This document shows, piece after piece, positions 1,247 through 3,680 of a DNA stretch of 22,404 nt (within the stretch, counting starts at the first letter, position 1; each line of letters begins with the position of its first letter). The position numbers and the translations under genes were made by a program. A model generated the notes under the pieces. It did no database searches. It saw only the letters and a program-made list of their open reading frames with translations, and was not told the DNA's origin. The stretch spans positions 1-22,404 of IMG/VR virus record IMGVR_UViG_3300023181_000083; one strand, given 5' to 3'. This DNA comes from a virus.

Positions 1247-1753
1247 TCACTTTACAAATTTATAATTAACCCATCCATTAGTGCCTGATTCATCCACACG
1301 AACGTACAGCCATTCTCCATCATGAGAGATGTAGGTTACCATATCTCCATAATTAATAACTTCAAGTACCTTGTAATTGCTGCCGGCACCATCTCGAACA
1401 TTTAAAGTCTCGCTGGTAACCTCAAGCATTTGCAGACGTTTATATTGTTTCATTGGTTTAACAACTGTTGTACCGCCTGCAGCTGTAAAGGCTTTGGCTT
1501 TTACCTTGCGTGGCTTTGCAACAACCGGTGCGGCGTAACTGGCGCAAACACCACAGCTGCCACCTTCCTTACTGCAGTGCTTGCATGCACTACAGTTTTT
1601 GCACGCTGTACAGTATGCATCGCCGGAGCAGCGGCCGTAATCTTCTTTCTGCTCTACTGCAGGAGTGCAGCAACTTGCAATTAATTTTGTGGTTTGAGAA
1701 ACCACGGCATTACTGCATAGGATTATTATTAGTATTAGTAGTTTTTTTATCAT
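1247..1753 (-). CDS. Secreted Cys-rich protein with C-terminal bacterial SH3 domain
   Basis: A 168-aa exported protein. Residues 1-19 are a signal peptide (lysines, then LLILIIILCSNAVVS). Residues 28-70 hold ten cysteines in closely spaced CxxC-like pairs (CTACKNCSACKHC, then CGVC), which could bind metal or form disulfides. A Lys/Ala-rich linker follows. Residues about 113-168 form an SH3b domain with the classic LNVRDGAGSNYKVL start, GEWLYVRV middle and GWVNYKFV end. SH3b domains commonly bind peptidoglycan peptides or mediate protein contacts outside the cytoplasm. The start overlaps the stop of the upstream small membrane gene in an ATGA junction, so the two are co-translated. Transcription probably starts at the repeated promoter element near 1987-2060. 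It could be a surface or lysis-associated accessory protein; the exact job is unknown. Confidence 0.8.
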   Translation of the reverse strand: MIKKLLILIIILCSNAVVSQTTKLIASCCTPAVEQKEDYGRCSGDAYCTACKNCSACKHCSKEGGSCGVCASYAAPVVAKPRKVKAKAFTAAGGTTVVKPMKQYKRLQMLEVTSETLNVRDGAGSNYKVLEVINYGDMVTYISHDGEWLYVRVDESGTNGWVNYKFVK

Positions 1754-1968
1754 TGAGAATTAGTTTTGAAAATTAACGCTAAACCTATAAGTATACCCAT
1801 AACAAAGCTGAAGCCAACCATATAATAAATCATGGTTACAGCACTATTAGTGGACCGGGCATAATCCGCAGTTTTCCGCGCATAATATGTACGTATCTCT
1901 AAAAGGTTTCGGTCAGTATGATTTTGGATATTTTGTAAGTACTCTTTTTTTTCCTGTTCTTGTGTCAT
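1750..1968 (-). CDS. Small single-pass membrane protein
   Basis: A 72-aa protein. Residues 1-45 are hydrophilic and helical (MTQEQEKKEYLQNIQNHTDR). One transmembrane helix covers about 48-67 (YYMVGFSFVMGILIGLALIF), followed by a short tail, KTNSQ. The ATG is at 1966-1968. The stop overlaps the ATG of the SH3b protein gene (ATGA at 1750-1753), so the two form one operon. The pairing of a membrane-anchored small protein with a secreted SH3b protein suggests an envelope function, but this is inference from context only. The operon is preceded by one of two nearly identical promoter elements in the window. Confidence 0.75.
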   Translation of the reverse strand: MTQEQEKKEYLQNIQNHTDRNLLEIRTYYARKTADYARSTNSAVTMIYYMVGFSFVMGILIGLALIFKTNSQ

Positions 1969-1986: not shown

Positions 1987-2060
1987 TAAATGTATGTTAA
2001 AAATTTAACAGGAAAATACGGGTTGCCTCAATTCAGGTAAAAATACCTACTAATGGGTAT
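1987..2060 (-). promoter_or_regulatory. Promoter with palindromic operator, copy 1
   Basis: On the minus strand the -7-like box TACATTTA (1987-1994) lies 19 nt before the ATG at 1968. A 53-bp block (2008-2060) upstream is 47/53 identical to the block at 2691-2743. It contains the perfect inverted repeat AGGTA-N4-TACCT (2035-2048), exactly 40 nt from the -7 box, as in copy 2. There is no TTG at the -33 position; instead a conserved CCCGTnTTTTCnTGT lies there. This fits activator-dependent initiation. Confidence 0.6.
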
Positions 2061-2089
2061 AGAAAAACCTGACGCAGCAGGTTGAAAGG

Positions 2090-2644
2090 TTATAGAAATT
2101 CAACTTCATCAAATTTTTCTAATATTCCTACTTGGTTTGTAAATATGTTGAAAAATACGTTTGTTAGTCCGGCTCCATAACCATTTTCAATAATATGAAA
2201 ATTAATTAGCCTGCTATCATATCCTTCTAATGGTGACACACCTGGATCAGTACCGGTGCCTGGATCTTCGGATGGAGGTATAACAGGAGCATACTCGTTA
2301 TATAATTGAGATGGAGAAAAGTCTGGGTAAATAGCAATATATCCCTGTTTTGTATTTTCTGATGATACTCTTAAATTCAAATCTTCCAATTGTTTGTCAA
2401 AAAGAATGTTTTGAGATTGAGATTCGGTATCCGGGTATACATTTTTCACTGCATTTAAAATGAAATTATCAACTTCATCATCTCCAAAATTAGGCCCTAA
2501 TTTATACGTCCCTGTTGGCTTTCTCATGTAAAGAATTTGGCCAATGGTGATGGTGTCAGTATTGAATTTTAATTTAATGTTTATAGTTTTTAAAATTCTT
2601 GCATTCGTTAACGTTAGATACGTCATAACTCTTGAATTGGACAT
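2090..2644 (-). CDS. Hypothetical protein, 184 aa
   Basis: A 184-aa protein from an ATG at 2642-2644. Residues 1-110 are mixed alpha/beta (MTYLTLTNARILKTINIKLK). About residues 120-140 are a Pro/Gly/Asp-rich linker (PPSEDPGTGTDPGV), followed by a short beta-rich tail (LINFHIIENGYGAGLTNVFF). There is no signal peptide or membrane segment. I do not recognise the family. It sits alone as a minus-strand unit under the second copy of the repeated promoter element, and so is probably co-regulated with the SH3b/membrane pair at 1247-1968. A virion or accessory role is possible but unsupported. Confidence 0.7.
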   Translation of the reverse strand: MSNSRVMTYLTLTNARILKTINIKLKFNTDTITIGQILYMRKPTGTYKLGPNFGDDEVDNFILNAVKNVYPDTESQSQNILFDKQLEDLNLRVSSENTKQGYIAIYPDFSPSQLYNEYAPVIPPSEDPGTGTDPGVSPLEGYDSRLINFHIIENGYGAGLTNVFFNIFTNQVGILEKFDEVEFL

Positions 2645-2669
2645 TTGTATTTATTTAAAGGTTATTTAG

Positions 2670-2743
2670 TAAATGTAGAGTATTAATTTTACACGAAAAC
2701 ACGGGTCACCGCAATTCAGGTAAAAATACCTACTAATGGGGAT
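2670..2743 (-). promoter_or_regulatory. Promoter with palindromic operator, copy 2
   Basis: TACATTTA (2670-2677, minus strand) lies 26 nt before the ATG at 2644. The 53-bp block at 2691-2743 repeats the one at 2008-2060, with AGGTA-N4-TACCT at 2718-2731 and the same 40-nt spacing to the -7 box. The region also lies between divergent genes, so the palindrome could influence the + strand gene at 2790 too. Confidence 0.6.
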
Positions 2744-2766: not shown

Positions 2767-2774
2767 TATGTTTG
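2767..2774 (+). promoter_or_regulatory. -7 element (TATGTTTG) for the 2790 gene
   Basis: TATGTTTG matches the Bacteroidota -7 consensus TAnnTTTG perfectly and ends 15 nt before the ATG at 2790. No clear TTG lies about 20 nt upstream (only TGG nearby). The AGGTA-N4-TACCT palindrome at 2718-2731 lies 35 nt upstream and may supply an activator or repressor site. Confidence 0.5.
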
Positions 2775-2789
2775 TAAAAATTTCCCGCC

Positions 2790-3680
2790 ATGACCCTCAC
2801 CGAATTAGCCAAAAGTATTTACGATAGTTCTACCGAAAGAATTAAAACACCTATTACAGGCTCGTTCTCATTGGCATTTGTGCTGTACAATTGGAGGCCA
2901 ATACTCTTGTTGTTATTTTCAAAAGATAGTATAGAAAATAAAATTCAGGTTATTGATATATTTTTTAGCAGTTGGCATGCAATCGTAGTCCCGCTGTTAA
3001 TAGCGCTTCTTTATGTAGTTATTGTGCCATACCTAATGATGGTAATTGAGATTCTATTAAATACCGCAAATGTTGGTAGGAAAACCAATAGGAGTGAACA
3101 GCAACTTTTAGACCTGACATTAAAGTCTAAGTTACTTTCTCAAAAATTTAAAAATACTCAAATTGAAAGTGGAGAGAAAGATATTAAAGAGTTGAATGAT
3201 ACAATTGCAAATATGCAGTCTCAAATCACAATTATCAATGATCAGCATAAAAGTGTCGTGGAAAATTACGAATCAATTATTGTTGGCTATAAGAATGCTG
3301 ATTCCGAAAATAGCAGATTTAGCAAATCTTTATCTGAAATGGAATCTAATTTCCTTTACATGACCGACTATTTAACCACTACATTAAAAATTATAGTGTC
3401 ATTATTGACACCAGAACAACTATCTAATATATTAAATCTTTTAACTCAACTCATGAATGATCCCCCTCACAATGTGAATACCCATCTGGTAAACATGTTG
3501 ATAGAATACGAATTTGTTGAAGATGTGATTGATAATAAAACTGGATTTCCTACATTCAAGGTAACTGAACTTGGAGAAATGTTTAGAGATAACTTTCTTA
3601 ATTGGAGCAGAAATAACACTGACAATAATAAAAATATTACCTTTCCAACCCCCTCAATTCCTCCTTTATCGCCTCAGTAA
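2790..3680 (+). CDS. Membrane-anchored coiled-coil protein with winged-helix-like C-terminus
   Basis: A 296-aa protein. Residues about 1-45 hold the pattern ERIKTPITGSFSLAFVLYNW and a first hydrophobic helix; a second membrane helix covers about 61-90. Residues about 100-190 are a long polar coiled coil (KDIKELNDTIANMQSQITII). Residues about 205-270 (LLTPEQLSNILNLLTQLM, then LIEYEFVED and FKVTELGEMF) look like a small winged-helix fold. Such an arrangement puts a coiled coil and a sensing or binding domain in the cytoplasm behind a membrane hairpin. The function is unknown. It is transcribed opposite to the phage late genes and its 3' end overlaps the convergent gene at 3637 by 44 nt. It could be a superinfection-exclusion or other accessory gene. 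That is inference from topology and orientation, not homology. Confidence 0.75.
   Translation: MTLTELAKSIYDSSTERIKTPITGSFSLAFVLYNWRPILLLLFSKDSIENKIQVIDIFFSSWHAIVVPLLIALLYVVIVPYLMMVIEILLNTANVGRKTNRSEQQLLDLTLKSKLLSQKFKNTQIESGEKDIKELNDTIANMQSQITIINDQHKSVVENYESIIVGYKNADSENSRFSKSLSEMESNFLYMTDYLTTTLKIIVSLLTPEQLSNILNLLTQLMNDPPHNVNTHLVNMLIEYEFVEDVIDNKTGFPTFKVTELGEMFRDNFLNWSRNNTDNNKNITFPTPSIPPLSPQ

Follow-up and report, generated by a model that had tools for sequence, protein, structure and literature searches.

Repeated promoter units upstream of phage accessory genes and their possible link to a NarL/FixJ-type response regulator of Flavobacterium

SsrB of Salmonella is a member of the NarL/FixJ family of response regulators. 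It directly activates the prophage accessory genes sseI (Gifsy-2) and gogB (Gifsy-1) (PMC7380047), and the action of NarL-family host regulators on prophage genes is already known from this example. The 7-2-7 site of NarL/FixJ proteins is defined as two inverted heptamers with a 2-bp separation, and through such sites E. coli NarL activates napF (-40 to -49) and yeaR (-38 to -47) (PMC4549865). In Bacteroidota, whose regulators and binding sites are poorly known, the primary-sigma promoter consists of a -33 TTTG and a -7 TAnnTTTG element, the latter spanning -12 to -5 (PMC6847099). The locus described here resembles the SsrB case in that a host two-component response regulator would activate prophage accessory genes, as judged from sequence evidence only.

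The window, a whole IMG/VR record, is a linear fragment of 22,404 bases. Its terminase shared 60% identity with the one from Flavobacterium phage laban6-1; Flavobacterium psychrophilum and Cellulophaga phages gave the next best matches. Accessory genes, additional to the structural genes, occupied the left 3.7 kb. There the plus strand had a 296-aa ORF (2790..3680), and the minus strand had a 184-aa ORF (2090..2644), a 72-aa membrane-type ORF (1750..1968), the gene for a 168-aa protein (1247..1753) and two further ORFs. The 168-aa protein is exported and Cys-rich with a C-terminal SH3 domain (SH3_3, E = 2e-10), and no relatives of it were found among phage proteins. Its gene overlaps the 72-aa ORF and is in one transcription unit with it. 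Family searches returned no family for the 72-aa or the 184-aa ORF, and phage protein searches no homologue for the latter. The 296-aa protein matched phrog_4780 (E = 1e-17) and has two N-terminal membrane segments (read by eye) and a coiled coil; only its first 80 residues matched Proteobacteria and Leptospira phage proteins. PADLOC gave no match for any gene of the window, and nothing in Rfam matched within it.

Two 53-bp blocks on the minus strand, copy 1 (2008..2060; repeat D1), with the 72-aa ORF as the first gene after it, and copy 2 (2691..2743), with the 184-aa ORF behind it, were identical at 47 of 53 positions, as the initial annotation had reported. The best other ungapped matches to copy 1 in the window reached 26/53 on the plus and 29/53 on the minus strand. 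Similarity extended over 103 nt at 76% (1963-2065 and 2646-2748), with 68% identity in the spacer from core to box, and fell to near background further upstream (38%) and downstream (50%); the flanks, previously described as dissimilar, were so further out but not next to the blocks. An intrinsic-terminator-like hairpin on the minus strand (2066..2083) ends the 184-aa gene just ahead of copy 1, and from this hairpin (2083-2066) the 184-aa gene and the 72-aa and SH3 genes look like separate transcription units.

Both blocks contained AGGTA-N4-TACCT (2035-2048 in copy 1), the end of which lay 40 nt from a -7 element, TACATTTA, at 1987..1994 for copy 1 and 2670..2677 for copy 2 (minus strand), in agreement with the distance first given. 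The sequence AGGTAAAAATACCTACTAATGGG occurred in the window only at 2035 and 2718 (0 expected in shuffles). The gap from block edge to TACATTTA was 13 nt in both copies and not 14 nt, and the distance from TACATTTA to the ATG was 18 nt (copy 1) and 25 nt (copy 2) instead of 19 to 26 nt. TACATTTA fits the Bacteroidota -7 element save for its last base, A instead of the G of TAnnTTTG. At -33 to -30, both copies had TTTC and not TTTG (2012..2015 and 2695..2698, minus strand), a weak -33 element as expected of an activator-dependent Bacteroidota promoter; the reported lack of TTG at -33 held as a weakness but not as an absence, the element being degenerate in both copies.

The plus strand of both copies can be read as I-Q-V-K-I-P-T-N-G, and the blocks might on that account be a conserved short coding remnant. 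The frame is open in the copies, with a stop within a few codons (by eye), and similar peptides stood at gene starts in two other loci (L003 and L108). The window copies have no start codon, however, and they differed mainly at codon positions 1 and 2, with the core identical at the third, which is the opposite of coding constraint; this explanation is extremely unlikely.

The conserved core, T[A/C]CCCATTAGTAGGTATTTTTACCTGAATTG, includes a 16-bp inverted repeat with a 2-bp centre, T[A/C]CCCAT-TA-GTAGGTA, present as TACCCAT-TA-GTAGGTA in copy 1 (2044..2059, minus strand) and as TCCCCAT-TA-GTAGGTA in copy 2 (2727..2742, minus strand). In copy 1, the -7 element stood 49 nt after this palindrome. 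As two inverted T-A-C-C-x-x-T heptamers 2 bp apart, the pairs TACCCAT/TACCTAC (copy 1) and TCCCCAT/TACCTAC (copy 2) agree with the 7-2-7 arrangement. A second, weaker heptamer pair began 20 bp (two DNA turns) after the first, as the imperfect 7-2-7 pair TACCTGA-AT-TGAGGCA in copy 1 (2024..2039, minus strand), with a putative functional role, and as the weaker TACCTGA-AT-TGCGGTG in copy 2 (2707..2722, minus strand). AGGTA-N4-TACCT, put forward earlier as the site, is indeed present and corresponds to the inner halves of the first and second pairs; it is incomplete, the element common to phage and host being the overlapping 16-bp palindrome TACCCATTARTRGGTA. The unit did not match the Bacteroidetes LexA motifs CTAA-N5-TTAG and GGA-N5-TCC (PMC8565304).

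Independent copies of the extended unit were few. An 18-mer scan of GTDB genomes gave 12 matches, of which only that in Flavobacterium sp. Sd200 was real; the others were rejected, the flanking core being absent. At the Sd200 site S1, a 28-bp core was identical to the window, TAACTTTA followed at exactly 40 nt, and the gene behind encoded an SH3 protein related to that of the window (72% identity over 57 aa). Site S2, 2.3 kb from S1, was a diverged copy (79% over 47 nt) in which TACGTTGG likewise stood 40 nt on; by eye, nothing more than a 13-codon ORF followed. Summed over the two window copies, S1 and S2, offset 49 was the best of 95 box positions (23/24; next 19/24); TACATTTA had the same offset in copies 1, 2 and S1, with S2 as a one-off match, and copy 1 and Sd200 had an additional box-like sequence at offset 25. 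In a further genome (G763), reached via an SH3-domain search, the SH3 gene had TACCCATTAATGGGTATTTTTACCTG and, 50 nt on, TATATTTG, a spacing 10 nt or one helical turn beyond the 40 nt of the window; its perfect TACCCATTAATGGGTA has the same 7-2-7 arrangement. SH3 relatives followed the unit in a phage, in a tRNA island and on another chromosome, which are three separate contexts, and the spacings in Sd200 (40 nt) and in the third genome (50 nt) support the initial proposal of a constrained unit of probable activator type with fixed spacing.

Both Sd200 sites lay within an island of 2,931 bp that looks like the remnant of an integrated element and has, at its two ends, an 18-bp stretch of the 3' end of tRNA-Ala as a direct repeat. 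The island (L032:2995-5943), at tRNA-Ala(GGC), had an SH3 gene, two coiled-coil genes and two promoter copies, and no integrase. With S1 and S2 bracketing genes inside these repeats, and with two direct copies flanking a gene in the window, the blocks could be read as a repeat that moves or recombines, such as a MITE, an att site or a cassette boundary, and not as a promoter. This is very unlikely, as the att-like junction repeats of the island differ in sequence from the unit, no att sequence was found in the window, and genomes carried one or two copies, invariably in fixed register with a -7 box and in many cases also with the start of a gene. The extended phage-type unit was rare in Flavobacterium, occurring in only a handful of genomes, and was not enriched over controls across 299 Flavobacterium genomes. 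Behaviour as a mobile repeat and random placement relative to genes were both looked for; the unit did not behave as such a repeat, and its register with -7 boxes was fixed.

The motif was absent from 25 related phage loci, and blastn against phages and plasmids gave weak matches only. In IMG/VR, an exact 19-mer search had one match, in a coding region of an unrelated phage present in two contigs, and a spacing-aware pattern had one chance match inside a coding gene; both were rejected. The sole other IMG/VR copy was in a temperate phage contig (G782, locus L111). It agreed with copy 2 at every position over 26 nt, and its palindrome was followed at 48 nt by a TATATTTG box, 1 nt closer than in the window. 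It runs antisense to a 93-aa ORF, at the start of that ORF, and precedes a CI-like repressor gene. This copy is suggestive only as a real instance and could be due to chance. The layout (L111:389-1585), in which the motif faces the repressor gene and overlaps the opening codons of an early gene in antisense orientation, resembles the lambda PRE promoter.

This contig bears on another explanation, in which AGGTA-N4-TACCT would be the operator of a phage-encoded Cro/CI-type (XRE) regulator and the repressor circuit of the prophage itself would govern the promoters. Such operators are compatible with a palindrome of 14 bp that has 5-bp arms, and in G782 a repressor gene follows the stretch shared with copy 2. 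The likely operators of that repressor, however, are different repeats adjoining its gene, which look like repeated ACTAACATATGTTAT (by eye), and the motif itself, within the start of the 93-aa ORF, may be there by chance. The unit is retained in the Sd200 island and at the G763 locus, neither of which has a repressor gene, and none was found in the phage fragment. Control by a phage repressor is unlikely.

The plain palindrome was more widespread than the extended unit. TACCCATTARTRGGTATTTTT, with at most one mismatch, was present in 18 of 249 Flavobacterium genomes (reversed control 0), and a TAnnTTTG-like box started 22-23 nt after the palindrome in 27 of 68 nonredundant directed sites (0.94 expected per offset; Poisson P about 3e-22). 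The plain palindrome is genuinely a promoter element of Flavobacterium. Because the -7 element occupies -12 to -5 (PMC6847099) and the spacing is 22-23 nt, the ordinary host palindrome is centred near -43. The fixed spacing to the -7 box also led to rejection of the palindromes as plain terminators; some of those behind the regulator gene described below may double as its terminator. In the window, a perfect -7 element for the divergent 296-aa gene, TATGTTTG (2767..2774, plus strand), followed the copy 2 palindrome, read on the plus strand, by 24 nt, close to the host spacing, and the earlier suggestion that copy 2 also serves the gene at 2790 is plausible.

Genes after host palindromes included PadR-type regulators, lipoproteins, a CBASS cyclase and a TIR-domain protein. 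Orthologous PadR-type regulator genes in two genomes (L084 in G763 and L099 in G216) had the palindrome 22-23 nt before the -7 box. A host palindrome with a -7-like box stood before CBASS oligonucleotide cyclase and TIR-domain genes (L078 in G216; L081/L105 in Sd200), and a Cas9-like ORF (by eye) started 85 nt from a palindrome copy (L096 in G216), one that does not fit the -7 spacing. Defence-type genes near palindromes were a CBASS cyclase, a TIR protein and a Cas9-like ORF, in genomes G001 and G216. The idea of a promoter for defence genes was rejected, three genes being too few and the other targets being lipoproteins and regulators.

A GerE-domain search was run in five genomes. The palindrome adjoined the same response-regulator gene in 4/5, and degenerate forms lay behind its orthologue in the fifth. 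The five regulator proteins, of about 203 aa, had receiver and GerE domains and 69-75% identity to the first. The gene of the Sd200-type regulator, a 203-aa protein, lies at L201 8568-9179 on the minus strand. In Sd200, the gene preceding the regulator reads as a TPR sensor kinase (by eye) and a gene for an LpoB-like lipoprotein follows it. Clear regulator orthologues were found in 28 of 189 genomes, and most of the 26 readable ones had T[A/C]CCCATTRATGGGKA and a T-tract just behind the gene, together with a -7-like box at a distance of 22-23 nt; conservation of the box there may in part be due to common descent. Behind the regulator gene the TCCCCAT variant, known from copy 2, was seen again as TCCCCATTAATGGGGA. 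Element and regulator co-occurred (8/13 vs 20/176; Fisher P = 7e-5), a figure inflated by shared ancestry, the genomes being related. In three loci (L200, L201 and L203), the regulator gene was separated from the LpoB-like gene by a segment of about 130 nt that is driven by the element and closed by a terminator; its TAGTTGGTTTAG tail was common to these loci (by eye), and the segment is a possible small RNA.

The sites may be activator sites as proposed and yet be bound by another NarL/GerE-type protein or an unrelated host protein. Examined Flavobacterium genomes had 8-15 GerE proteins each, the heptamer preference is common to the family, and 5 of 13 element-bearing genomes had no clear regulator orthologue. 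Against this, only this regulator gene repeatedly adjoined the element, and a different binding protein is a possible but distinctly less probable explanation.

The preferred reading, with a rough probability of 0.6, is that activator sites wire the phage accessory genes to a host NarL/FixJ two-component regulator. Support for the promoter unit is good, the repeat, its fixed spacing, the independent copies, the host promoter element and the linkage to the regulator gene having been computed directly; the identity of the regulator we infer. Each 53-bp block would supply the upstream half of a Bacteroidota promoter that depends on an activator, with the weak -33 TTTC and the -7 TACATTTA. The predicted activator site would consist of the 16-bp NarL-type 7-2-7 palindrome and the weaker heptamer pair two turns on. 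The most likely protein would be the host NarL/FixJ response regulator encoded beside the TPR sensor kinase in Sd200, which the phage's host is assumed to carry. Phosphorylated regulator dimers would bind both tandem heptamer pairs upstream and recruit RNA polymerase, and an active host kinase would then lead to expression of accessory (moron) genes from the prophage independently of the lytic programme. Predicted targets are the operon of the 72-aa and SH3 genes, the 184-aa gene and perhaps the divergent 296-aa gene.

The phage-type palindrome is centred near -70, in comparison with -43 in ordinary host sites, a difference that is a non-integral number of turns, and the extra heptamer of the extended phage-type units was not found in ordinary host sites. 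Because it lies further from the -7 box and has this extra heptamer, the phage-type unit is a distinct architecture. More speculatively, and doubtfully, it could be a portable promoter cassette of temperate Flavobacterium phages that places lysogenic-conversion genes, and perhaps the G782 repressor gene (the unit then being a PRE-like promoter for establishment), under a host two-component system of the NarL type, with a host signal deciding accessory expression and lysogeny. The signal may be tied to phage defence, because the host element also precedes CBASS cyclase and TIR-domain genes. No description of the element, of the Flavobacterium regulator linkage or of the repeated phage cassette was found in the open-access papers searched. 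What the analysis yields is a concrete element, TACCCATTARTRGGTA followed at 22-23 nt by a -7 box, together with a candidate regulator and its sensor kinase; the proposal that a phage connects its accessory genes to host signalling can be tested on this case.

Compared with E. coli NarL sites, the locus has the same kind of inverted TACCCnT-type heptamers 2 bp apart, as in the engineered narG -89 site TACCCCTAAAGGGGTA (PMC4549865). Ordinary Flavobacterium copies centre near -43, similarly to napF and yeaR, and additional single heptamers are shared with narG. Unlike in E. coli, the phylum and the sigma factor are others, the phage copies are near -70 with a second imperfect pair, and nothing known marks the Flavobacterium candidate as a nitrate regulator. 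The SsrB system is a virulence regulon with experimental proof, whereas the Flavobacterium system is proposed from sequence evidence alone, and, unlike with SsrB, a near-identical promoter cassette is used more than once in one phage.
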